Assembly: GCA_902792535.1 (NCBI GenBank)
Contig: CADAZU010000017.1
Location: 1 to 38,821, forward strand
DNA: 38,821 bases
Reading direction: 5' to 3'
DNA from: an uncultured Bacteroidales bacterium
Lineage (GTDB): Bacteria > Bacteroidota > Bacteroidia > Bacteroidales > Paludibacteraceae
Of the stretch, positions 5,327 through 37,588 are shown piece by piece. The first letter of the stretch is position 1, and every line of letters starts with the position of its first letter. Below the pieces are notes generated by a model. That model was not told where the DNA came from, did not search any database, and saw nothing but the letters and a program-made list of their open reading frames with translations. The position numbers were made by a program, and so were the translations under genes.

Positions 5327-6025
5327 ATGTACTACACCATGATCGCAGCAGCCGTGCTGCCTGCCATTCTCTTAGGCTTGTATATCTGGCGCAAGGACCC
5401 GCACCCCGAACCGTTCAGCTGGGTCTTCCGGGCATTCCTCGCCGGAGTGCTCATCTGCCTGCCTGTGGCGTCCATTGAGCAATATATCCATTATATGCTC
5501 TTCGGTGAAGGGGAACCCACTACCCTTTTCGGCTCAACCACGATGGCGTTTTTCGTTGCTGCCGCTCCGGAAGAGGGTGCTAAACTGCTGGCGCTCTGGC
5601 TGTTGCTGAGAAAGAACCCGCATTTCGACGAAGACTTCGACTGCATCGTCTATTCCGTCTTTGTGAGCCTCGGTTTTGCCACGCTGGAGAACATCGGATA
5701 CGTGTTTATGAGCGGCGAAGCATGGATGGGCACAGCGATTATGAGGGCGCTGCTCGCCGTTCCGGGACACTATGCGTTCGCAATCATGATGGGCTATTAT
5801 TACGCGATTTATCATTTCGTTGACTCCTCGCCCAAAAATGCCGCCAAGGTCTTTCTGGTACCTTTCATAGCGCACGGCGTGTACGACGCGATCGCAATGA
5901 GCGGAGATGTGAATCCCATTGCGGCTTCTATCTGCACGCTGGTTCTGATCTATTTCTGTATCAAACTGCAACGCGAAGCGAGCCGCAAAGTGAGCCATCT
6001 GATTAGCATCAATAAACAGAGGTGA
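5327..6025 (+). CDS. PrsW-like intramembrane metalloprotease
   Basis: 232 residues with about seven hydrophobic segments. PrsW-family motifs are all present: EEGAK (E82, E83, K86), GHYAFA with H148, and AHGVYD with H183 and D187. PrsW cleaves anti-sigma factors in Bacillus; here the substrate is unknown and no anti-sigma gene is nearby. Its stop overlaps the next gene's GTG start by four bases (GTGA), so the two are coupled. Inner membrane. Confidence 0.9.
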   Translation: MYYTMIAAAVLPAILLGLYIWRKDPHPEPFSWVFRAFLAGVLICLPVASIEQYIHYMLFGEGEPTTLFGSTTMAFFVAAAPEEGAKLLALWLLLRKNPHFDEDFDCIVYSVFVSLGFATLENIGYVFMSGEAWMGTAIMRALLAVPGHYAFAIMMGYYYAIYHFVDSSPKNAAKVFLVPFIAHGVYDAIAMSGDVNPIAASICTLVLIYFCIKLQREASRKVSHLISINKQR

Positions 6026-6801
6026 TCAAAACGCCGGAACAAATAGCACTGGAGAAACAGCGCGAGCGGTTGACCAAACGGTTTCATAAGGCTTGCGCAG
6101 ACTACGGACTGATCGCCGACGACGACCACATACTGATCGGTCTCAGCGGAGGGAAAGACTCTCTGCTGCTGACCGAACTATTAGGTCGTCGCGCGCAGAT
6201 ATACGTCCCGCGGTTTCAAGTCACAGCCCTTCATGTGCGCGTCAAAGAGCGGGACTATCACACCGATCTCAGTTACCTGCAGTCCTTTTGCGACGAAGCG
6301 CAAGTGCCGCTTCTTGTCCGAGACGTCTCTATCCCTGACACACCGCCGCAAAAAGAAAACGGCAAGACGCGCGAGATAGACAACCCTTGCTTTCTATGCT
6401 CGTGGTTCCGCCGCAAAGAACTCTTCAACGTAGCGCAAGAGATCGGCTGCAACAAGATCGCTTTTGGTCACCACCGCGACGACATAGCGCAGACCCTGCT
6501 CATGAACCTGATCTTCCAAGGCTCTTTCGCCACCATGCCGCCTATATTGCAAATGGACAAAATGCCGCTGCAACTCATCCGGCCGCTATGCCTTATCGAC
6601 GAAGCGGACATCATCTCCTATGCCGCTATGCGCGGCTACCAGAAGCAGACCAAACTATGTCCGTTCGAGCATGTCAGCTCGCGCGAGAAAGTGAAAACGC
6701 TGCTGGACGAGATTAAATCCCTCAATCCCGAAGCGCTCGACTCGATCTACGGCGCGCTAACAAACATCAAAACGGACTACCTTCCAAACTGTAAATTGTA
6801 A
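6022..6801 (+). CDS. TtcA-like tRNA 2-thiolation ATPase
   Basis: 259 residues. PP-loop ATP-pyrophosphatase (SGGKDS, residues 42-47) with the TtcA cysteines: CFLC (C123, C126) and C213 in LCPFEH, expected to bind a 4Fe-4S cluster. GHHRDDIAQT matches the family's helix after the FeS motif. TtcA thiolates cytidine 32 of tRNAs; related family members act on other tRNA positions, so the exact site is inferred. The GTG start is set by the GTGA overlap with the PrsW stop. Confidence 0.85.
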   Translation: MIKTPEQIALEKQRERLTKRFHKACADYGLIADDDHILIGLSGGKDSLLLTELLGRRAQIYVPRFQVTALHVRVKERDYHTDLSYLQSFCDEAQVPLLVRDVSIPDTPPQKENGKTREIDNPCFLCSWFRRKELFNVAQEIGCNKIAFGHHRDDIAQTLLMNLIFQGSFATMPPILQMDKMPLQLIRPLCLIDEADIISYAAMRGYQKQTKLCPFEHVSSREKVKTLLDEIKSLNPEALDSIYGALTNIKTDYLPNCKL

Positions 6802-6831
6802 ATCTTAAAATCCTAAAATCTTCAAATCTCT
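6793..6831. repeat. 7-8 bp degenerate array before the DMT gene
   Basis: Words tgtaaat, tgtaaat, cttaaaat, cctaaaat, cttcaaat cover the end of the TtcA-like gene and nearly all of the gap to 6834. Confidence 0.65.
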
Positions 6832-6833
6832 TT

Positions 6834-7210: not shown

Positions 7211-7234
7211 CAGCCTTCAGCATTCAGCTATCAG
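7211..7234. repeat. CAGNNNN heptamer array at the end of the sirtuin gene
   Basis: CAGcctt, CAGcatt, CAGctat, CAG. On the minus strand it supplies the last codons and the TGA stop of the sirtuin gene. Same family as 15172-15216 and 37215-37249. Confidence 0.8.
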
Positions 7235-7915
7235 TCTCTCTACTAACTCCGGCACACCTTCGGTGGCTTTTTTGCGTATATGGGTGATCCGGTCCGCCCA
7301 CATGCCGAACTCCGGCTGACCGGGATCCACAAAATAGATCGGACAGTTCTGCGGCGCATAGTGAATCAACGAAGCCGCAGGATAGACGTTCAGACTTGTT
7401 CCCACAACGACCATGATATCCGCCTCCGAAGCGATACGGCAGGCTTCGTCGAAATAAGGCACTCCTTCTCCGAAAAATACTATATAGGGTCTGAGCAACG
7501 AACCGTCCGGATGGCGGTCGCCGTAGTGTTGCTCCCATCCCTCCAAAGGCACCGTAGCCGTCTCGTTGTTCTCCGAACGCAGTTTCGTAATCTCTCCGTG
7601 CAGGTGTACTACATCCGTTGCTCCCGCGCGCTCATGCAGATCGTCGATATTCTGTGTAATAATCCGCGTACCGGGAATTGTCTGCTGCAACTTGGCGATC
7701 GCTATATGCGCCGCATTGGGTTGCGCAGCCAAGGCATCCTTACGCCGCGCATTGTAGAAATCGACGCACAGCTGCGGATTGCGCAGCCATGCTTCGTGCG
7801 TACAGACATCCTCTATACGGTATTTCTCCCATAAACCGTCCGAGTCACGAAACGTACCCAGACCACTCTCGGCGCTCACTCCGGCACCGGTGAAAACAAC
7901 GATCTTCTTGCTCAT
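7217..7915 (-). CDS. cobB: NAD-dependent protein deacylase (class III sirtuin)
   Basis: 232 residues, cytoplasmic. Removes acyl groups from lysines using NAD+. Seen: FTGAGVSAESG (NAD binding, from residue 9), TQNIDDLHERAG, catalytic H106 in HLHGE, VVGTSLNVYPA. Y54 and R57 (DFYNARRK) match the Tyr/Arg pair that favours succinyl/malonyl lysine in Sirt5-type enzymes. The usual four zinc cysteines after the HGE motif are absent (KLRSENNET instead). Lies 25 bp after the NlpC/P60 gene at the end of the uxaB-led operon. Its C-terminus LIAEC and stop fall in a CAGNNNN array. Confidence 0.93.
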   Translation of the reverse strand: MSKKIVVFTGAGVSAESGLGTFRDSDGLWEKYRIEDVCTHEAWLRNPQLCVDFYNARRKDALAAQPNAAHIAIAKLQQTIPGTRIITQNIDDLHERAGATDVVHLHGEITKLRSENNETATVPLEGWEQHYGDRHPDGSLLRPYIVFFGEGVPYFDEACRIASEADIMVVVGTSLNVYPAASLIHYAPQNCPIYFVDPGQPEFGMWADRITHIRKKATEGVPELVERLIAEC

Positions 7916-10369: not shown

Positions 10370-10412
10370 ATTTTTCCTAGTTTCCTAGTCTCCTAGTTCC
10401 CTAGTCTCCTAT
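10370..10412. repeat. CCTAG 8 bp array between comF and nadB
   Basis: Five near-copies of TnTCCTAG fill almost the whole 42 bp gap and reach the comF stop region. Confidence 0.75.
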
Positions 10413-11143
10413 TTTGCTTTGCAAAGCGCAAAGACAGTTATTTTTGCGCCCCGGAAGAGCCGCATGGCGCGAATGCAACTTCTCGCGGTTTCACCGGTAG
10501 TAATCAAGTCGTCCACCAGCAGAATATGCTTGTGATACATCTGCTCCGGATGGTTCACGGCAAAAGCGTCCGCCACGTTATGCTTTCTCCCTTCGCCGCT
10601 CTGTTGCGCCTGCTTGGGAGTGTTCCGAATACGGGTTACAAGACTTGTATCCACCGGAATGCCGGTGTAGTCGCTAATCCCTCGGGCGATGTACTCCGAC
10701 TGGTTATAGCCCCTCTCTCTGAGCCGCTTCGGATGCAGCGGCATAGGCACAATTACCTCGATTTCATCGAAGAAATCCGTGTCCTGCATCTCCATCGCAG
10801 CCTGCCTTCCCAAGTGATACCCGATGAGCGGTTGATCCGCATATTTCATCTTGTGTACCAGATGCTGAATCGGCTGATCTTTCTCGTAGAAGAGAAACGC
10901 AGCAGCACGTTTCAGATGCATGGCTTTGGCGGCAGCAACTATGTCGTGTGTCGCCCCGACCAAAGCCATCTCGGTACTATTCTGGTATATCGACGCCTGC
11001 TCCGTCCGCGGCAAAGCCGCGATACACTCCTCGCACACCGCCTCTCCCCGTTCGTCCTTGGTACTTTGTCCCTTGGTACTTCCCATGTACCGCCCGCACA
11101 TGGGGCAGACACGGGGATAAAAGAGGCTGCTAAAGAGTGACAC
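10409..11143 (-). CDS. comF: ComF family phosphoribosyltransferase-like protein
   Basis: 244 residues. N-terminal zinc ribbon (C13/C16 in CPMC and C37/C40 in CEEC) followed by a phosphoribosyltransferase fold with MPLHPKRLRERGYNQSE and the PRPP loop ILLVDDLITTGET. ComF proteins act in DNA uptake and recombination in naturally competent bacteria; enzymatic activity is uncertain. The spacer between the two zinc pairs is longer than usual because an in-frame array (11054-11084) adds STKGQSTKDERGE. It overlaps uxaA by 14 bp. Confidence 0.9.
   Translation of the reverse strand: MSLFSSLFYPRVCPMCGRYMGSTKGQSTKDERGEAVCEECIAALPRTEQASIYQNSTEMALVGATHDIVAAAKAMHLKRAAAFLFYEKDQPIQHLVHKMKYADQPLIGYHLGRQAAMEMQDTDFFDEIEVIVPMPLHPKRLRERGYNQSEYIARGISDYTGIPVDTSLVTRIRNTPKQAQQSGEGRKHNVADAFAVNHPEQMYHKHILLVDDLITTGETARSCIRAMRLFRGAKITVFALCKAK
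11054..11084. repeat. In-frame GTACCAAG-family array in the ComF zinc ribbon
   Basis: On the minus strand it shares 14 bases (gacaaagtaccaag) with the array at 22943-22976. It encodes STKGQSTKDE between the two CxxC pairs. Confidence 0.75.
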
Positions 11144-14304: not shown

Positions 14305-14384
14305 GCATGCACGCATTTTTCGGTATTTTTTCTCCACAAACAGTTTTTCTAATATGCGTAACGGGGTTGGCACAGACGGGGGAA

Positions 14385-14439
14385 AGAAGCTGACAAGAAC
14401 CAGAGAAGAAGCAGACAAGAAGCAGGCAAGAAGCAGGCA
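14385..14439. repeat. Tandem array, five 11 bp units
   Basis: Five units of the type agaagcaggca; the last two are identical and the earlier three diverge step by step. It ends 12 bp before the next array. Confidence 0.88.
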
Positions 14440-14451
14440 AGTACCACGAAA

Positions 14452-14517
14452 ATGACGCACTTATCACGCACTTATCACGCACTTATCTCGCACTTATCAC
14501 GCACTAATCACGCACTA
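14452..14517. repeat. Tandem array, six 11 bp units
   Basis: Six units of atcacgcactt with four variant positions in total. Its sequence is unrelated to the neighbouring array, but the 11 bp period is the same. Confidence 0.92.
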
Positions 14518-14586
14518 ATTTTCGGAGAAAATCGGGAAAATCGGGAATCCGCCATGCATAGGCGGATAGTTTTCAGAATTCGAGTG

Positions 14587-14714: not shown

Positions 14715-15581
14715 ATGCGTTATACTTGTTGGGTCATAGGTCTGTTGGTGTGCGTCTTGGCATGCGAGGCGCAGGGTGCGAAGCGTCCTGTGACGGAGAC
14801 GGAGCGGTTGGCGCGCGAGCTGAAACGCAGTCCCGGCGACATGGATTTGCATTGCCTTCTGGCGCAAGCGCAGCTGGCGGAAGGAGACACGGCTGCGGCG
14901 GAAAAGACGCTGGAGTATGCGCTGAAACTGAAAGAGACACCTTGTCTCTACATGCAGAAAGCACGGATTCAGCTTGCCAGACAGGATTTCTACAGTGCCG
15001 CGCGCTACTGCGCGCAAGCCGTCAAAGCGGGTATGAAGCCCGAAGAAGACAGCCTCATTTTCCGGATTGACAGTCTGTCTTCCGGAGGAGTGCGAGTGGG
15101 AATCCAAAGGCTGGCAACGGAGGACAAAAAGAACGACGCGCTGCGGTACGGGCTGGAGCAGATGGAGAAGTCAGCTATCAGCCATCAGCCGTCAGAAGTC
15201 AGCCATCAGCAGGCAGAGGAGGACAGTATCATCGCGGAAATTCCATTTCTGAACCAGACAGAGCGGCTGGAAATGAAAGGCAAGATCAACGGTCTGCCTA
15301 TTCGTTTGAGCGTGGACACGACCGCCACCCGGAGTTCCATCTCCGGCGTAGAAACCATGTTCATGCTCAAAAACGAATATATCTCCAAAGCCGATATACG
15401 CGACAACACCGCCGTAATGATCAAGCGGCTGGAGATAGGCGAGTCCGTCGTGCTGAACGACATCACCCTGCAACACAGAGCGACCCAGGAGCAATCCGTC
15501 ATCCTTTGCATGGGCGATCTGGAGCGGCTGGGACGTATCCGGATTGATGACAAGAAAAGAATGTTGGTCATTTATAAATAA
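14715..15581 (+). CDS. Exported TPR protein with degenerate retropepsin-like domain
   Basis: 288 residues with an export signal (hydrophobic to about residue 17; Cys17 could be a lipobox but the match is weak). TPR-like helices (about 25-150) are followed by a retropepsin-like domain (about 175-288): MKGKINGLPIRLSVDTTATRSSIS and then FMLKNEYISKADI, which align with the downstream protease-like gene at 17269. The active-site triad is DTT (201-203) instead of DTG, so catalysis is doubtful. An in-frame CAGNNNN array encodes SAISHQPSEVSHQQAE between the two domains. It is 9 bp before the next TPR gene. Function unknown. Confidence 0.82.
   Translation: MRYTCWVIGLLVCVLACEAQGAKRPVTETERLARELKRSPGDMDLHCLLAQAQLAEGDTAAAEKTLEYALKLKETPCLYMQKARIQLARQDFYSAARYCAQAVKAGMKPEEDSLIFRIDSLSSGGVRVGIQRLATEDKKNDALRYGLEQMEKSAISHQPSEVSHQQAEEDSIIAEIPFLNQTERLEMKGKINGLPIRLSVDTTATRSSISGVETMFMLKNEYISKADIRDNTAVMIKRLEIGESVVLNDITLQHRATQEQSVILCMGDLERLGRIRIDDKKRMLVIYK
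15172..15216. repeat. In-frame CAGNNNN heptamer array
   Basis: Six 7 bp units plus a final CAG, encoding the linker of the TPR/retropepsin protein. The 17 bases cagccgtcagaagtcag are shared with the array inside hypB (minus strand of 37215-37249), and both encode QPSEVS. Confidence 0.88.
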
Positions 15582-23129: not shown

Positions 23130-24039
23130 ATACTTGTTTGACTTGTTCATAATTGGTATCCCAGGAGAACCGGCGCGCGTTCCTAAACCCTGCCTCTATA
23201 ATAGCCTGTGCAGAGCGCGACTGCAGCTGCTTCACTATATCCGCCATTTCAGCCGCCATACGCGCCGGTGTGTCGTGCTGTACCATCAGTCCTTGCTCTC
23301 CGATCACTTCGGGGATCGACGAAGCGTTTTGCGCAATAACAGGACAGCCAGCTTTTTGTGCCTCCAGGATCGGCAAACCAAAACCTTCGTAGTCAGAGGG
23401 ATAGAGCAGACAGAGTGCTTCGTTATAGAGTTGATTCAGTTCCGCACGTGTGACACGAGAAGCCGTGACTAACTTCAGCCCCGTCAAGCGCGCCACTTCT
23501 TGCGCCACGTTGTAGCGTTTATAGTCCACTTGCGTGTTCCCCACATAGAGCAGATAGCCCTTCTTTTCTACCGATGGAATCGGGAAAAACTCATCGCTCA
23601 CACCATTGTAAATAACCCGTATCTGTTCCTCTTTCACCCACGGATAGAAACGCAGCAGATCGCGCTTGGTGTTCTCGCTGATACATATAACCGCCTCGCT
23701 ATGCCGCAAGGCGCGCTCCTCTTCCCATAAATGAACCGCTTTCGGCAAACCTTTGCGATAGAAATGGTACGTCAAGTCATGCACGGTCGTGACATTATTC
23801 ACTCCCTCTTGCGGCAGGACACGGAAATAGGAGGAATGAAAGATAGCGGGTGCCTCTGCCTTGTAAGCGGGAACGCGGTACCGCTCCATGAATCGGGGAG
23901 CCATTTGCTCCTTGTAGTCCAACTCCGTCAAGCGCAGCGCGACGTCAGCGCGAGCTCGGCGCAAGTGTTCACTCCAAACAGTAGAGATTCCTCCATTTCG
24001 TTGGAGCATAAATATAATATTGTCAAGAACAATATTCAT
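23098..24039 (-). CDS. Family 4 glycosyltransferase
   Basis: 313 residues, GT-B fold. N-terminal domain with RNGGISTVWSEHLRR and FHSSYFR; C-terminal nucleotide-sugar domain with YLLYVGN, CLLYPSDYEGFGLPILEAQKAGCPVIAQNASSIPEV (E-x7-E motif) and VIGEQGLMV. Retaining sugar transferase of unknown donor. The start codon shares a base with the upstream stop (TAATG), and both fall inside an ATTCATT heptamer array. Confidence 0.93.
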   Translation of the reverse strand: MNIVLDNIIFMLQRNGGISTVWSEHLRRARADVALRLTELDYKEQMAPRFMERYRVPAYKAEAPAIFHSSYFRVLPQEGVNNVTTVHDLTYHFYRKGLPKAVHLWEEERALRHSEAVICISENTKRDLLRFYPWVKEEQIRVIYNGVSDEFFPIPSVEKKGYLLYVGNTQVDYKRYNVAQEVARLTGLKLVTASRVTRAELNQLYNEALCLLYPSDYEGFGLPILEAQKAGCPVIAQNASSIPEVIGEQGLMVQHDTPARMAAEMADIVKQLQSRSAQAIIEAGFRNARRFSWDTNYEQVKQVYENLYYYHHL

Positions 24040-24054
24040 TATTCATTATTCATT
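24034..24054. repeat. ATTCATT array at a stop/start junction
   Basis: Three exact copies of attcatt. On the minus strand they encode the last residues of one GT4, its TAA stop and the ATG of the next GT4. Confidence 0.85.
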
Positions 24055-25190
24055 ACTTTCTCCCATTGTGGCATGATTGCTGCTTCGCTGTATGTCGCTT
24101 GCGCAAAAGCCTGCGCTTTGGCGGCACGCGCCGCCGCTTCGTCCGGATGGGCAAGGGCGTATTCTATCTGCTGTGTCAATTTTTCTACATCGTTGGCGGG
24201 CACGAGCCATCCTCTGCCGTCTGCTAATAGTTCAGCAGGCCCCTGCGGACAGTCGAAAGCGACGCAGGGTGTGCCACACCACATCGCTTCTATGAGGGCT
24301 AAGGGCAGTCCTTCGTAGCGCGAAGAAAGGACAAAGAGCGAAGCGGCTGCGTATTCTTTTGCCATTTCTGCTGCCCTTCCGGCGAGCGTCACATGCTGCA
24401 AATGCAGGTTCTCTATCTGCGCTTCCAATTCCTTGCGCTTGGGTCCTTCGCCCACGATGCGGAGCATGTATTCGGGATAGTGTTTCTCTATCGGCTGCCA
24501 TGCTTCTAACAGCAGGTCAAACCCTTTCTGCTCGTGCAGCCTCCCTACCGCCAGCACGGTCTTAGGGAATTGAGAATGGATGGTTGATAGTTGACAGTTA
24601 TCCAGCATGCAAGGGTTAGGTATGACGGTCACATTCGTACAACCGGCTTGCTCCCATGCCTTTTTGTCTGCTTCGGTCAGTACGACCAAGCGCTCCAAGG
24701 GTTTGACGGCTTGCACCAGTTGGTGTGTGCGGATCGCCCCCAAGAGCGACCAGAAAGCACCGGTGTGATTCGCCATCAGAAGCTGCTTCCGCTGGTTCAT
24801 CGCGAAGTGCATCTCCGCGATTGTGCGGCAAGGCAGGTGACGCAGAAATGCGATCTCTTTGCCGCCGAGCGAGATACAGAGTTCTATCTTATGCGTACGT
24901 ATATATTTGGTTAGCGCGCGTTTGTATGCGCTCATGCGACGCATGTGCGCGTAGTATTTGGACAGCAGCGGCTTGGTGTAGTCCGCATTGAAGTTTATAT
25001 TCAGTTCCTCCACCTGCACTTTCTCCGAAAGCGGAAAATAACATTTTGGGGTGCCTGCGGGAGTGCGTTCGGTCGTCAGGATCGTAATCTCGTGAAGCGT
25101 GTTGGCTGCGAGCCAGTTCACTTTCTGGGTCAGTACGCGCTCCATGCCGCCGGAGTTATAGAGATGCGGGATGCAATAAAGGATTCTCAT
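24039..25190 (-). CDS. Family 4 glycosyltransferase
   Basis: 383 residues. The frame is open further upstream, but the start at 25190 is chosen because it makes a 4-base ATGA overlap with the polymerase stop and gives the usual GT4 beginning MRILYCIPHLYNSGGMERV. Seen: the C-terminal domain TVLAVGRLHEQKGFDLLLEAW, GEGPKRKELE, LSSRYEGLPLALIEAMWCGTPCVAFDCPQGPAELL. Wording fits amylovoran/lipopolysaccharide type GT4. A TTCAATT-type array encodes NCQLSTIHSQFP in the inter-domain linker. Confidence 0.93.
   Translation of the reverse strand: MRILYCIPHLYNSGGMERVLTQKVNWLAANTLHEITILTTERTPAGTPKCYFPLSEKVQVEELNINFNADYTKPLLSKYYAHMRRMSAYKRALTKYIRTHKIELCISLGGKEIAFLRHLPCRTIAEMHFAMNQRKQLLMANHTGAFWSLLGAIRTHQLVQAVKPLERLVVLTEADKKAWEQAGCTNVTVIPNPCMLDNCQLSTIHSQFPKTVLAVGRLHEQKGFDLLLEAWQPIEKHYPEYMLRIVGEGPKRKELEAQIENLHLQHVTLAGRAAEMAKEYAAASLFVLSSRYEGLPLALIEAMWCGTPCVAFDCPQGPAELLADGRGWLVPANDVEKLTQQIEYALAHPDEAAARAAKAQAFAQATYSEAAIMPQWEKVMNNE
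24568..24602. repeat. In-frame TTCAATT-type array in a GT4 gene
   Basis: Five 7 bp words, gaattga, gaatgga, tggttga, tagttga, cagttat, read on the minus strand as a linker between the two GT-B domains. Confidence 0.7.
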
Positions 25191-31264: not shown

Positions 31265-31299
31265 AAAAAGCCCGAAACGAATGTTCCGGGTTTCTTTTT
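31263..31299. terminator. Bidirectional terminator between the fusion gene and rpsP
   Basis: Stem cccg-aaac / gttc-cggg around GAAT, with an A tract on the left and a T tract on the right, so it can stop both convergent transcripts; pairing is better on the minus (rpsP) strand. Confidence 0.8.
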
Positions 31300-31301
31300 C
31301 T

Positions 31302-31340
31302 TCGGGATTTCGATATGTCGATATATCGATACTCCGAAAG
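31302..31340. repeat. CGATAT-type 8 bp array
   Basis: Words tttcga, tatgtcga, tatatcga, tactccga. It lies between the terminator and the rpsP stop. Same wording as 33261-33290 and 36850-36886. Confidence 0.65.
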
Positions 31341-33260: not shown

Positions 33261-33316
33261 ATCGGTATATCGACCTTTCGGTATATCGAGTTTTCAACTT
33301 TCAACTTTCAACTCTT
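33261..33316. repeat. Composite array (CGATAT words, then TTTCAAC words)
   Basis: tatatcga and cctttcgg words pass directly into three exact copies of tttcaac (33292-33312). The latter supply the last codons and the stop of the 95-residue gene. Confidence 0.75.
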
Positions 33317-33581
33317 TCCTCTCCTTGGCATAGCACCAGATTGCCCAGACGGCAGTGACGACGACGGACATCGGCACGCCGATCGTCAGCACTTCGCGTA
33401 AGTTCCATGCGAAAAGTTCGCCGTTGACCAAATGGTCAATGAGCAGCATGATAGATCCGCCCCAGAGCATCAGTTCCAGAGTCTTTAAGTTACGTCCGAC
33501 AAAAGTGTCGGTCTGTTTCGTTACTTTGCGGTAAATAGTAGTCGCTACCGCCTGCGTTAATGGTACAATAAAACAAGCCAT
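33294..33581 (-). CDS. Small membrane protein of the hyp operon
   Basis: 95 residues, with two or three hydrophobic helices (LELMLWGGSIMLLIDHLV and TIGVPMSVVVTAVWAIWCYA the clearest). A Lys/Arg-rich region lies between the first and second. Not recognised as any named family. It sits 31 bp after hypA and 69 bp before the next membrane gene, in the same direction, so it is probably a partner of the 364-residue protein. Its tail ELKVES comes from a TTTCAAC repeat. Confidence 0.75.
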   Translation of the reverse strand: MACFIVPLTQAVATTIYRKVTKQTDTFVGRNLKTLELMLWGGSIMLLIDHLVNGELFAWNLREVLTIGVPMSVVVTAVWAIWCYAKERKELKVES

Positions 33582-33604
33582 ATTATTATAAAATTTCCAA
33601 AATG

Positions 33605-33632
33605 TTCAATTTTCAATTCTCAACTCTCAATT
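33605..33632. repeat. TTCAATT heptamer array at the hypA stop
   Basis: Four words: ttcaatt, ttcaatt, ctcaact, ctcaatt. On the minus strand they give the last residues (ELRVEN) and stop of HypA. Confidence 0.85.
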
Positions 33633-33960
33633 CCTTTATCTCCACCTCGTTGCCGCGCAGGAGCCATGTCTTCTCGCTGCCGCAATGGGGACAGATCTTG
33701 CCGTGCGCGACGGTGGGGTAGTCCTTGCCGCACCCGTCGCAATGGGTGACGGCAGGTATGGGTTCGATCTTTAGTTCGCAGCCCCGCAGCAAGTCTTCTT
33801 TGTCCGCCGCCCATCGCCAACAGTCGGTCAGGTACTCCGGAATGATCGTGCTCACTTCGCCGATGTTCATCACAACAGTCGAGACGTGCTCCACCCCGTT
33901 CTCCTGCGCCGCTTGCTTGACGTCGCGGATGATATAGAAGACTATCCCTAATTCGTGCAT
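33613..33960 (-). CDS. hypA: Hydrogenase/urease nickel incorporation protein HypA
   Basis: 115 residues, usual length. Nickel chaperone that works with HypB to load Ni into [NiFe] hydrogenase or another Ni enzyme. N-terminal MHE (nickel ligands including His2) and the zinc site C74-x2-C77 / C90-x2-C93 are intact, followed by GSEKTWLLRGNEVEIKEL. Its start shares one base with the upstream stop (TAATG), so it is coupled to the FeS-flavoprotein. No hydrogenase or urease subunit is in the window. Confidence 0.94.
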   Translation of the reverse strand: MHELGIVFYIIRDVKQAAQENGVEHVSTVVMNIGEVSTIIPEYLTDCWRWAADKEDLLRGCELKIEPIPAVTHCDGCGKDYPTVAHGKICPHCGSEKTWLLRGNEVEIKELRVEN

Positions 33961-36806
33961 TACTTTTTCGGGCTTAGTCCGGAAATAAGGATCTTTCCGC
34001 CTCTCTTGATCATGTACGGCAGGATGCCGTCAAACTTGTTCTCCGAGGTGCGCATGACGCTGGCTTCGGGATGTTCGCGATGCAGATGGATGGCATCGAA
34101 GCCGCACTTGGTGGTACAGATACCGCAACCGATACAGCGGTTCTCGTCCACGACGGACGCACCGCAACTGAGACAGCGTGCCGTCTCCTTCTTCACCTGC
34201 TCCTCGGTCAGCGTGCCGTGGTATTCGGCGAATTGGCTCTTCGTCGGAATAACACCCGGCTCCTGACGGCTGGAGTTGTCGTACTGTTCTACGCGTATGT
34301 CGCTCTTGTCCAGTTCGATGAAATCGCGGCGGTTGCGACCGATGGTCATGTGTCCGTGCTGCACGAAACGGTGCAGACTCTCGGCGGCTTCCTTGCCGGC
34401 AGCAATCGCGTCGATGGCGAATTTCGGACCGGTATAGACATCGCCGCCCACGAAGATATCGGGTTCTGCAGTCTGGTACGTCAGTTTGTCGGCTACGGGG
34501 TACACGCCGCGGACGAATTCCACTTTGGTGTCCTTCAGCAGGTCTTTCAGCACCACGGTCTGACCGATAGCAAAGATCACGAGATCCGCCTCCAGCGTGA
34601 GGGTCTCATTCTCATCGAACTTAGGCGCAAATTTATGCTCGGCATTGAAGACCGATGTGCAGCGCTTGAAAGTGATTTCCTTTGTACCTCGTACTTCGTC
34701 CCTTCGTACTTCTTTTGGTCCCCATCCCGGGTTGATCACTACGCCGTCCTCGCGTGCCTCCATGCGCTCTTCGAGCGAAGCCGGCATGATGTCTTCGGTC
34801 TCCAGCGACAGCATCGTTACTTCGCTTGCCCCGCTGCGTTTGGCAACTCGGGCAGCGTCGATAGCTACGTTTCCGCCGCCGACTACCACCACTTTGCCGC
34901 TGATCTTCTTGCCTCCGCAGTTAGCGTCGTGCAGGAAGTCGATCGCCGTCGTTGTGCCTTCGAGCTCCTGTCCGGGGATGCCCGGCAGACGACCGCCTTG
35001 GCAGCCGATCGCTACATAGAAGCCCTTGTAACCCTCTTTGCGCAGGTCGGCGATGGTGATGTCTTTTCCCACCTCTACGCCGCAGCGGATCTCCACGCCG
35101 ATCTCACGCATGATATCGATCTCGGCTTTGACAACCTCTTTGTCCAGTTTGTAGGACGGAATACCGTAGCGGAGCATACCGCCGGGCTCTTCGTTTTTCT
35201 CAAAGACCGTGGGTTTATATCCCATCGTCGCCAGATAATAAGCGCAACTCAGTCCGGCGGGACCGCCGCCTATAATAGCGATTTTCTCCTCCCAATGGTC
35301 CTGCACATTGGAGCATATATTGACTTCAGGAATGAACCGTGTCTCGGCATGCAGATCACGGTCGGCAATGAATTTCTTCACTGCGTCGATAGCGATAGCT
35401 CTGTCTATCGTGCCGCGGGTACAAGCGTCCTCGCAACGACGGTTGCAGACGCGTCCGCAGACTGCCGGGAACGGGTTCTCGCGTTTGATGAGTTCCAGTG
35501 CCTCGGTATACTTGCCTTCGGCTGCTTTCTTGAGGTAACCCTGCACAGCGATGTGCGCCGGACAAGCGGTCTTGCAAGGAGCCGTTCCGGTCGGGTAACA
35601 GTTCACGCGGTTGTCGTCGCGGTAGTTCTCGTTCCATTTCTCCGGACCCCATTTGGTCGCATCCGGCAGCTCCTGCTTCGGATAAGTCTGAGGTCCATGC
35701 GCAGTGCATAGTTTCTGACCCAACTTGACCGCTCCGGCAGGGCAGTACTCCACGCACCGTCCGCAGGCAACACATTTCGTCGGATCCACCTCCGCTACGT
35801 ACGCGCTACGCGACATATTAGGAGTATTGAACAACTGCGACGTACGCAGCGCGTTGCATATCTTGACGTTGCAGTTGCAGATCGCGAAGATCTTGCCCTC
35901 ACCATCAATATTGGTCACCTGGTGTACAAAACCGTGGTCCTCGGCTTTCTTGAGGATCGCCATTGCCTCGTCGTACGTGATGTCGTGTCCTCGTCCGGTC
36001 TCGCGCAGGTAATCCGCCATGTCACCCACACCGATACACCAGTCGCGGTAGTCGTCTGCGCAGCCCTCGTCCAGTTTCTTGCGGCCGTAGCGGCACGAAC
36101 AGATTCCGACACCGATATGTCCTTCGTATTTCTTGAGCCAGTAACTAATATGCTCTATATCGACCGACTGGTTCTCCATCGAGATCGCTTTCTCCACAGG
36201 AATAACGTGCATACCGATACCGCTGCCGCCCATCGGCACCATCGGCGTGATCTTCTCCAGCGGCAGGAACGTCATGCGCTCGAAGAACATCGCCAACTCA
36301 GGATGACGGTCCATCAACTCGGTGTTCATGTTGGTATATTCAGCGCTACCGGGCACGAACATCGGTACCCAGTAGATCCGGTCCTCGCGGTTGAAAGTCG
36401 TGCCTGCGTCCGGTCCCTGACCGTTTGTGTAATGGTCGCCGTAGTCATATTCGAGCATGCCGAAATACGCCAATTTATCCAGCAGTTCGTCGAAACTCTT
36501 GTCGTCCGGCGTGTAGTGTTTCTTGGCGTTCATCGCGTGCAACTGCGCATACGTGTGATGCTTGCGTACCTTAAAGAAATTACCGGGCAGCATGTCCAGT
36601 AACAGGTTCAGCGACGCCTCGCGCGTCACCGCATCCATCTCGTCCTCGAAGATGCAGGCGAGACCCCAGTACTCCGGGGCGTCAGTAGTCATCTTGATCT
36701 TACCGGGGATACGGTCCGTCACGTGGCGGACAAACTTCAGCAGTTTCGGATTCGGGTTCTTGTCTCCCTTGTGCTTGGGGACAAACTTCTTCGACATTTC
36801 AGGCAT
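33960..36806 (-). CDS. Large FeS-flavoprotein, NAD(P)-linked oxidoreductase (GltD/NfnB-like)
   Basis: 948 residues, cytoplasmic. In order: an N-terminal module of anaerobes (about 30-320) with Cys-rich GICSCRYG (C236, C238) and ICNCNVKIC (310-317); a 4Fe-4S motif CVACGRCVEYCP (C345-C355); the GltD-type FeS helical domain (C411-C462); an FAD Rossmann fold (GGGPAG 513-518) and an NAD(P) fold (VVGGGNVAID 641-650); CLSCG (878-882) and a last 4Fe-4S motif CIGCGICTTKC (891-901). Electron transfer between NAD(P)H and FeS partners such as ferredoxin is likely. An array at 34678-34722 encodes KEVRRDEVRGTKE in the NAD(P) domain. It lies between hypB and hypA. Confidence 0.9.
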   Translation of the reverse strand: MPEMSKKFVPKHKGDKNPNPKLLKFVRHVTDRIPGKIKMTTDAPEYWGLACIFEDEMDAVTREASLNLLLDMLPGNFFKVRKHHTYAQLHAMNAKKHYTPDDKSFDELLDKLAYFGMLEYDYGDHYTNGQGPDAGTTFNREDRIYWVPMFVPGSAEYTNMNTELMDRHPELAMFFERMTFLPLEKITPMVPMGGSGIGMHVIPVEKAISMENQSVDIEHISYWLKKYEGHIGVGICSCRYGRKKLDEGCADDYRDWCIGVGDMADYLRETGRGHDITYDEAMAILKKAEDHGFVHQVTNIDGEGKIFAICNCNVKICNALRTSQLFNTPNMSRSAYVAEVDPTKCVACGRCVEYCPAGAVKLGQKLCTAHGPQTYPKQELPDATKWGPEKWNENYRDDNRVNCYPTGTAPCKTACPAHIAVQGYLKKAAEGKYTEALELIKRENPFPAVCGRVCNRRCEDACTRGTIDRAIAIDAVKKFIADRDLHAETRFIPEVNICSNVQDHWEEKIAIIGGGPAGLSCAYYLATMGYKPTVFEKNEEPGGMLRYGIPSYKLDKEVVKAEIDIMREIGVEIRCGVEVGKDITIADLRKEGYKGFYVAIGCQGGRLPGIPGQELEGTTTAIDFLHDANCGGKKISGKVVVVGGGNVAIDAARVAKRSGASEVTMLSLETEDIMPASLEERMEAREDGVVINPGWGPKEVRRDEVRGTKEITFKRCTSVFNAEHKFAPKFDENETLTLEADLVIFAIGQTVVLKDLLKDTKVEFVRGVYPVADKLTYQTAEPDIFVGGDVYTGPKFAIDAIAAGKEAAESLHRFVQHGHMTIGRNRRDFIELDKSDIRVEQYDNSSRQEPGVIPTKSQFAEYHGTLTEEQVKKETARCLSCGASVVDENRCIGCGICTTKCGFDAIHLHREHPEASVMRTSENKFDGILPYMIKRGGKILISGLSPKK
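34678..34722. repeat. In-frame GTACCAAG-like array in the FeS-flavoprotein
   Basis: Words tttgtacc, tcgtactt, cgtccctt, cgtacttc, similar to but more divergent than the other family members. It encodes PKEVRRDEVRGTKE on the minus strand. Confidence 0.6.
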
Positions 36807-36808
36807 GG

Positions 36809-36886
36809 GATTATTTACGATTTAATGATTTACGATTTACGATTTATTTTCGATTCTTCGATATATCGATATTTCGGTATTCCGAA
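36809..36886. repeat. Long 7-8 bp array with gradually changing word, between hypB and the FeS-flavoprotein
   Basis: The 80 bp gap is almost all repeat: tttacga, tttaatga, tttacga, tttacga, tttattttcga, ttcttcga, tatatcga, tatttcgg, tattccga. The word drifts from TTTACGA to TATTCCGA along the array. Confidence 0.85.
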
Positions 36887-37588
36887 TTATTCCTTCCAAC
36901 GAGCGACCTCTTTCAGCAGCCAATTGGCAAACGCCTCCACTCCTTCTCCGGTCTTGGCGCAGATAGGAATGACGGTAGCTTTCGGGTTGCGCATGTGGAT
37001 GTACTCCTTGCATTTCTCCATATCGAAATCGAAGTACGGCAGCACGTCGATCTTGTTGATGACGACGACGTCGCAGATAGAGAACATCAGCGGATATTTG
37101 AGTGGTTTGTCGTGACCCTCAGGCACAGACAGAATCATGGCATTCTTCACGGCACCTGTATCGAACTCCGCCGGACAAACGAGGTTCCCCACATTCTCCA
37201 AGATCACGAGATCGAAGGCTGAAGGCTGAGAACTGACTTCTGACGGCTGCCCACCGATTACGGCGGTCAGTCCTTGTTCTGTCATCTCTGCATCGAGATG
37301 GCACATGCCGCCGGTATGCAGCTGAATTGACTCCACGCCGGTTGCCTCTTTGATCTTGATAGCATCCACGTCGCTGTCTATATCCGCCTCCATCACGGCG
37401 ATACGGAGTTTGTCTTTCAGACGGTTGATGGTCTGGATGAGAGTTGTGGTCTTGCCGCTACCGGGCGAAGACATCAGATTGAGGAGAAAGACACCTTTCT
37501 TTTTCAGTTCACCGCGCAAGGCGTCAGCAGCGCGATCGTTATCCTCGAAGACACTCTTCTTGATCTCGATTATTTTTACGTTTTCCAT
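36887..37588 (-). CDS. hypB: Hydrogenase nickel incorporation GTPase HypB
   Basis: 233 residues. GTPase that delivers nickel with HypA. Seen: P-loop SSPGSGKTT (about 40-48), MEADIDSDVDA, the metal site GGMCHLDA (C96, H97), ENVGNLVCPAEFD (C138), NKIDVLPYFDFD. No His-rich N-terminal nickel store. Between HLDA and the conserved DLVILENVG there are about ten more residues than in HypB sequences I recall; the extra stretch (GQPSEVSSQPSA, 113-124) is exactly what the in-frame CAGNNNN array encodes. First gene of its operon; promoter at 37620-37650. Confidence 0.95.
   Translation of the reverse strand: MENVKIIEIKKSVFEDNDRAADALRGELKKKGVFLLNLMSSPGSGKTTTLIQTINRLKDKLRIAVMEADIDSDVDAIKIKEATGVESIQLHTGGMCHLDAEMTEQGLTAVIGGQPSEVSSQPSAFDLVILENVGNLVCPAEFDTGAVKNAMILSVPEGHDKPLKYPLMFSICDVVVINKIDVLPYFDFDMEKCKEYIHMRNPKATVIPICAKTGEGVEAFANWLLKEVARWKE
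37215..37249. repeat. In-frame CAGNNNN heptamer array inside hypB
   Basis: Five exact 7 bp units; on the minus strand CAGccgt, CAGaagt, CAGttct, CAGcctt, CAGcctt. It encodes QPSEVSSQPSA. It shares 17 bases with 15172-15216. Confidence 0.92.

Follow-up and report, generated by a model that had tools for sequence, protein, structure and literature searches.

How a short tandem repeat comes to lie in frame inside a conserved enzyme, and where else it has reached, is the question raised by hypB in the window (the whole stretch of 38,821 nucleotides analysed here). Three TCAGNNN heptamer arrays were found in it, one of them in hypB:

36887 to 37588, minus strand: hypB, host of the array, encoding a CobW/HypB/UreG GTPase for hydrogenase nickel insertion (Pfam PF02492)
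37215 to 37249, minus strand: five-unit TCAGNNN heptamer array, in frame in hypB
15172 to 15216, plus strand: TCAGNNN array, in frame in a putative TPR/retropepsin-like gene, 14715-15581 (name from the initial annotation of this DNA)
7211 to 7234, plus strand: TCAGNNN array between convergent genes, one of them a putative sirtuin gene, 7217-7915 (name likewise from the initial annotation)

Read on the coding strand, the array in hypB consists of the five CAGNNNT units CAGCCGT CAGAAGT CAGTTCT CAGCCTT CAGCCTT, confirming the in-frame run of five heptamers that had been annotated there. It occupies the loop that follows the CHLD helix and leads into the strand DLVILENVGNL of a product whose best PDB match is the HypB structure 4lps (E 7.6e-43). 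The initial annotation judged this HypB to be about ten residues longer than usual, correctly, since the loop from CHLD to ENVGNL has 35 residues compared to 24-26 in relatives in which it is unfilled; compared to solved structures, the array adds from six residues (4lps) to ten (2hf8). The HypB model places the array in a low-confidence loop that joins helix 99-110 to strand 126-132 and has a pLDDT below 50 at residues 113-120; the array most likely forms a neutral surface loop without a catalytic role.

Comparison of the three arrays upheld the two further identities that had been claimed. A 17-mer is common to hypB (37233-37249, minus strand) and the TPR gene (15186-15202, plus strand), and both encode the peptide QPSEVS because the 17-mer sits in the same codon phase. 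The third copy runs opposite to the putative sirtuin gene, and its other strand covers the stop codon of that gene. Simulation of 300 Markov-1 windows yielded no strict array compared to the three observed. When synonymous codons were resampled, a four-unit array survived in 0 of 20000 draws of hypB and in 3 of 20000 of the TPR gene.

The genome-wide search for (CAGNNNN)n suggested by the initial annotation was carried out in the genome to which the window belongs (G000, a Bacteroidales-like 2.37 Mb draft that is 82.65% complete, with genes called by our own script; all compared genomes are also drafts) and returned 91 strict three-unit matches, 56 and 35 by strand, compared to 5 for the reversed pattern. 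These merged into 54 arrays of three strict units or more. Of these, 44 lie within ORFs and 6 between genes, and the other four are at a gene's 3' end (3) or 5' end (1). The 44 internal arrays sit in 42 genes for unrelated proteins and use all three codon phases, and in 44/44 CAG is on the coding strand, the stop-free orientation. Only this orientation was found inside genes because TGA recurs every seven bases on the opposite strand, which is therefore blocked in all three frames. Coding DNA made up 91.7% of the sample, and random landing minus the antisense half would leave about 85% of survivors in ORFs (frame ignored), close to the 44/54 observed. Array units contained 33 different NNN triplets, with TTA, the equivalent of TAACTGA, in 3 of 221 units. 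Identical neighbouring units were weakly above the shuffled expectation (19 compared to 12.7, p 0.04), and the left edges of arrays tended toward AAGCNNT. Whole-array copying was rejected as weak, with three-unit strings common to arrays numbering 7 compared to 2.8 expected (p 0.04).

The hosts included MurG, LD-carboxypeptidase, RecG, RuvA, GDP-mannose dehydratase, a PorX-type REC-PglZ regulator, CoaE, LeuRS, UDP-glucose dehydrogenase and HypB, among others. A Pfam scan of 30 proteins from the 42 host genes, with envelopes and arrays compared by eye, matched 28 to a family at E 0.001; the array lay inside the match in 19 of the 30 (one of these below the family's curated cut-off), while in the other 11 it was outside, between domains or unclear, or there was no family. 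The LD-carboxypeptidase gene (L029/L030) has separate TCAG arrays in frame at two places, residues 101 and 179. Nine extra residues were present at the array in PorX compared to 7pv7 and nine in RuvA compared to 7x7q; the MurG array substitutes residues, with no insertion compared to 3s2u and two residues more than most congeners. Thus, the earlier description of an array inserted into enzymes holds as to frame but not as to plain insertion, since alignments of RuvA, RecG and MurG showed that resident residues were often replaced at the array.

The window also contained arrays of other sequence and fixed period, for which no strand is assigned:

24024 to 24064: period-7 array, TTCATTA core, on the stop/start junction of two genes
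33283 to 33324: period-7 array, TTTCAAC core, at the 3' end of gene 33294-33581
33598 to 33636: period-7 array, TCAATTN/TCAACTN core, at the 3' end of gene 33613-33960
36813 to 36857: period-7 array, ATTTACG core, between hypB and gene 33960-36806
36847 to 36884: period-8 array, TCGATATA/TTCGATTC core, longer in congener G064
31299 to 31339: period-8 array between convergent genes
10370 to 10415: period-8 array, CCTAGTNT core
6796 to 6832: period-8 array, starting at the stop codon of gene 6022-6801
14381 to 14524: period-11 arrays, intergenic, of a class found in 14/15 sampled genomes

The arrays at 33283-33324, 33598-33636, 6796-6832 and 24024-24064 lie on gene 3' ends, where they can provide a stop codon or a stop/start junction; at the junction at 33598-33636 some relatives have other repeat families and G020 has none. 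Analysis of 400 kb at the middle threshold revealed an excess of periods 7 (34 stretches), 8 (17) and 11 (11), and their multiples 14, 16, 21, 22 and 33 also stood out. Periods 4, 5, 10, 13 and 17 gave 0-2 stretches, multiples of three (9, 12, 15) gave 6-10, as expected of coding repeats, and the block-shuffled control was empty from period 4 to period 38, with a single stretch at 39. Most congeners sampled had arrays of period 7, 8 and 11, in many different sequences, with period 7 in 11/15 genomes of the genus and period 11 in the 14 noted above (own genome included); there was no period-7 array in the samples of G020, G069, G110 and G099 (20-40 kb each) and no period-11 array in that of G004 (20 kb). 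Within 439 kb of the G000 genome, arrays internal to genes accounted for 18/38 of period 7, 2/20 of period 8 and 1/12 of period 11, and 13 period-7 arrays overlapped a gene 3' end.

Examination of the same sites in congeners revealed that they are filled differently from species to species. The HypB query matched 32/121 genomes of the genus (own included), of which 30 loci were read, and the fillers other than TCAG arrays were GTCGAAA, ACAATTC or ATTCAAAG repeats, a GTACAAAGG repeat, a 24-base repeat and hairpin-type repeats; four 'filled' loops were not clear repeats. The hairpin-type repeats (CCCTCTCC..GAGAGGG; CGGCGCGTCGCCGG) fill the HypB slot in L074, L083 and L088 and the RecG slot in L180, L181, L183, L186 and L196. 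More copies of the 24-base repeat of the G004 and G002 HypB loops occur nearby in the same gene cluster (L129 at about 2536 and 3483, minus strand; L130). Enrichment of the filler in its own genome's sample was clear in four of ten species (G000, G105, G078, G004), mild in two (G029, G059) and absent in four (G104, G015, G020, G090), several fillers fit another species' sample better (samples of 20-587 kb), and a recount with all HypB loops masked left these verdicts unchanged. We therefore rejected the idea that each filler represents its own species' dominant family and, because enrichment was clear in just 4/10, limit our claim to a genus-wide pool of fillers.

Queries with RuvA, RecG and MurG matched 114/121, 120/121 and 114/121 genomes of the genus, respectively (five of the RecG genomes solely via a paralog, E about 1e-70), and the best 30 loci of each, own included, were aligned and their site states assigned by eye. 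Among these, the RuvA site was occupied by a TCAG array in 4, by one further kind of repeat in another 4 and by singular inserts in 3, and was empty in 19; the RecG site held TCAG in 3, a hairpin-type repeat in 5 and one other filler, and was empty in 21; and the MurG site held TCAG in 3, AGCCAAN in 2 and GAATTAA in 2, with 23 lacking an array, including G064, which is nearest to the G000 genome by the RuvA, RecG and MurG proteins. On trees built by a quick method with loop columns removed (29-30 rows, fragment L101 excluded for HypB, support by SH-aLRT alone), the minimum number of state changes was 6 for RecG, 9 for RuvA, 7 for MurG and 13 for HypB. All four sites thus need repeated gains or losses, in counts that cannot separate gain, loss and gene transfer between species. 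TCAG at MurG requires three changes, with each TCAG row in a clade with array-free rows at SH-aLRT 100, and MurG is one site with three separate TCAG arrays. The genome counts and these alignments agree with the initial annotation that the array is dispersed, in frame and absent from relatives. The same residues at the same place, which it had taken as the mark of ordinary protein sequence, were found in G064 and, for other genes, near kin; the remaining relatives have no repeat or other repeats, and the check proposed there did not refute its reading.

Turnover was also evident between the closest genomes, in which strict matches far exceeded the controls (314 compared to 0 in G064; 172 compared to 3 in G059). 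Sites were compared for arrays of two units or more where both drafts were comparable. From G064 to G000, 33 sites comprised 15 arrays, 4 short and 14 none (28/61 without a comparable site), and from G000 to G064, 22 sites comprised 15, 2 and 5 (48/70 without). From G000 to G059 the figures were 16, 2 and 4 of 22 (48 without), and from G059 to G000, 13, 3 and 14 of 30 (34/64 without), the last 'none' figure being inflated because at least seven of the 14 are pieces of two long arrays counted repeatedly. G064 to G059 gave 13, 0 and 5 of 18, and the converse 13, 0 and 1 of 14. By eye, the 14 G064 'none' cases were another repeat family in G000 (6), no repeat (3), a shortened array (2), one substitution (1), a degraded array (1) and a mapping fault (1). 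Thus, at about 8% divergence, another repeat family or no repeat was found by eye at 9/33 comparable sites, the replacing families being TCAATTN, AAATGGT, GTACAAAGG, GTAACCC and two hairpin types.

Where both genomes had an array (50 comparisons, not independent), 31 were equal in length, 10 differed by 14, 21, 42 or 105 bases, and nine differed by lengths that are not whole units. Equal-length, same-register ortholog pairs showed changes at 20/617 core positions and 66/393 NNN positions, the low core figure being biased because one partner must match the search pattern; triplets changed at 0, 1, 2 and 3 bases numbered 90, 21, 15 and 5. In RecG, length was kept between G000 and G059 with 0/19 core and 10/12 NNN positions changed.

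Beyond these genomes the TCAG pattern was unevenly spread, with matches in 44/61 genomes drawn from the genus, 63/200 from the family and 81/295 from the order, and with counts among congeners running from 0 to 314. Other cores dominate in some genomes because the reversed-pattern repeat is commoner there: G362 and G383, elsewhere in the order, have more than 400 matches to GACTNNN, another dominant heptamer core. Contig L031 of a named uncultured Bacteroidales packs 12 TCAG arrays, each of at least two units, into 8 kb. Comparison of TCAG counts to the presence of candidate drivers in the 61 genomes led us to reject both the Y1 transposase (PF01797, over cut-off in 18/61; p 0.95) and reverse transcriptase (RVT_1, PF00078, 14/61; p 0.74), neither of which follows the counts; the richest genome, G064, was outside this draw. 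Nor was there an excess of target duplications or inverted ends, expected of a MITE, in the 54 pairs of array flanks (5-base direct matches, 2 compared to 2.0 shuffled; inverted matches, 3 compared to 1.5). No REP/RAYT features were found, with no palindrome in the unit by eye and, in the G000 and G059 drafts (83% and 71% complete), a best Y1 match below cut-off in the former and none in the latter, in keeping with the initial annotation, which recognised no REP or transposon type.

Taken together, these comparisons establish that the same sites change repeatedly, that residues are replaced, that only the stop-free orientation occurs inside genes and that, in some cases, length changes by whole units. 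They make it probable that the TCAG arrays belong to a degenerate heptamer-satellite system of the STRR/LSSR kind, whose arrays spread, alter by whole units and persist in coding DNA wherever the loop, the orientation and the frame permit; our best reading is that this persistence would be much like that of Rickettsia palindromic elements. Weighing against it, neighbour identity is less than plain slippage predicts, common strings are fewer than whole-array copying predicts, and several G064 to G000 'none' sites are shortened arrays, single substitutions or mapping faults. Local slippage alone, by which each array grew in place from a chance seed with the 7-base step set by the polymerase and without movement, is a rather unlikely alternative. 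It would account for the whole-unit length differences and the slight excess of identical neighbours, and the polymerase-step idea is in print (available portions of PMC4679880 and PMC4692102), but it fits poorly with one core at 54 sites while the other three bases vary, with three separate TCAG arrays at one MurG site and with unrelated repeat families at the same site in relatives.

Carriage of the arrays by a dedicated mobile element (REP/RAYT, MITE or palindromic element) appears distinctly improbable given the flanks, which have just the AAGCNNT tendency at the left edge, and the unrelated transposase and reverse transcriptase counts, despite dispersal, in-frame residence in ORFs like that of Rickettsia palindromic elements (as far as the available part of PMC10969869 describes them) and hairpin-type repeats in some of the same slots. 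The lower change in the core than in NNN is what a functional binding array would show, with a protein or RNA recognising TCAG every 7 bases and selection keeping the core; the search bias in that figure, the wide range of counts among congeners and the location of most arrays in ORFs of unrelated functions make this very unlikely. Ordinary protein sequence that is periodic by accident is barely credible: all that favours it is that residues such as QP also occur in some HypB loops lacking a TCAG array, whereas an array almost never survives synonymous resampling, all three codon phases are used in unrelated proteins and the site differs completely in most relatives. We also considered, as a quite unlikely possibility, a copying machine that would write fixed-step arrays (7, 8 or 11 bases) of whatever sequence, anchored on a short constant core, and thereby rewrite tolerant housekeeping loops into species-specific exchangeable peptide inserts.

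For the degenerate heptamer-satellite system, we propose that each of the 54 arrays, with its constant TCAG and variable NNN, would belong to a wider set of arrays with periods of 7, 8 and 11 bases. Array length would change by whole units, most likely through replication slippage, and units may be exchanged between arrays. New sites would be reached by short-homology copying or template switching, often replacing some resident bases, and arrays would presumably be retained under selection for frame, at tolerant sites and with a total length that leaves the frame intact. Such tolerant sites could then serve repeatedly as slots, with fillers that change from one close relative to the next. If this is true, RecG, RuvA, MurG and other core enzymes of a bacterial lineage are rapidly gaining protein sequence from satellite DNA, and the fillers provide a natural map of insertion-tolerant loops. 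With empty sites available in close relatives, the origin and spread of heptamer arrays would be testable by strain comparison, and the finding would warn that loop-length differences in such proteins may reflect repeat invasion, not adaptation.

TCAG arrays fit the class of dispersed heptameric tandem repeats (STRR/LSSR) in their 7-base unit, head-to-tail arrangement and many sites. Vioque is said to have described, in 1997, cyanobacterial STRR arrays in the RNase P RNA gene; TCAG arrays are similarly short tandem repeats inside conserved genes, but in dozens of protein genes instead of an RNA gene. The initial annotation was right that the array is of no recognisable REP or transposon type but was incomplete, since dispersed heptamer arrays are already a known kind (available text of PMC4679880 and PMC4692102). 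The accessible sections of the report on TAACTGA direct repeats (MacGregor 2015, PMC4679880) describe dispersed heptamers, some split by related heptamers, that are patchy among species, including five Bacteroidetes (Paludibacter propionicigenes is named), and lie mostly intergenically, just upstream of starts. Cases in ORFs, according to the same sections, are mostly in small proteins or protein ends and mostly in the reverse, stop-free orientation, and the TAACTGA unit is preferred, with close variants rarely repeated. TAACTGA fits the CTGANNN strand of the TCAG core, and the stop-free orientation in ORFs is common to both; unlike the repeats described in those sections, TCAG arrays are mostly in ORFs, often in conserved domains, their fillers differ between near relatives, and their diverse NNN triplets, with few TTA, contrast with the preference for one unit.

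The GGGAATC-type heptamers of Xanthomonas and Nostoc, as the available part of their description states (PMC4692102), are dispersed, vary in length and sequence between near relatives and in some cases lie over stop codons, and TCAG arrays resemble them in dispersal, in variability between near relatives and, in the array at the putative sirtuin gene, in lying over a stop codon. Those heptamers are also described there as G-quadruplex-forming, mainly intergenic and rarer on the ORF coding strand, in contrast to the 44/54 TCAG arrays inside ORFs. Rickettsia palindromic elements, in the accessible text of PMC10969869, are palindromes of about 150 bases in frame in unrelated metabolic genes; TCAG arrays are likewise in frame within unrelated conserved ORFs but are short, heptameric and without a palindrome. 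Among the best matches in the open-licence literature we found no paper describing heptamer arrays in frame in a range of conserved Bacteroidales enzymes, a weak negative. In sum, the class is already known, and the in-frame, exchangeable-slot behaviour of the TCAG arrays was described in none of the papers found.
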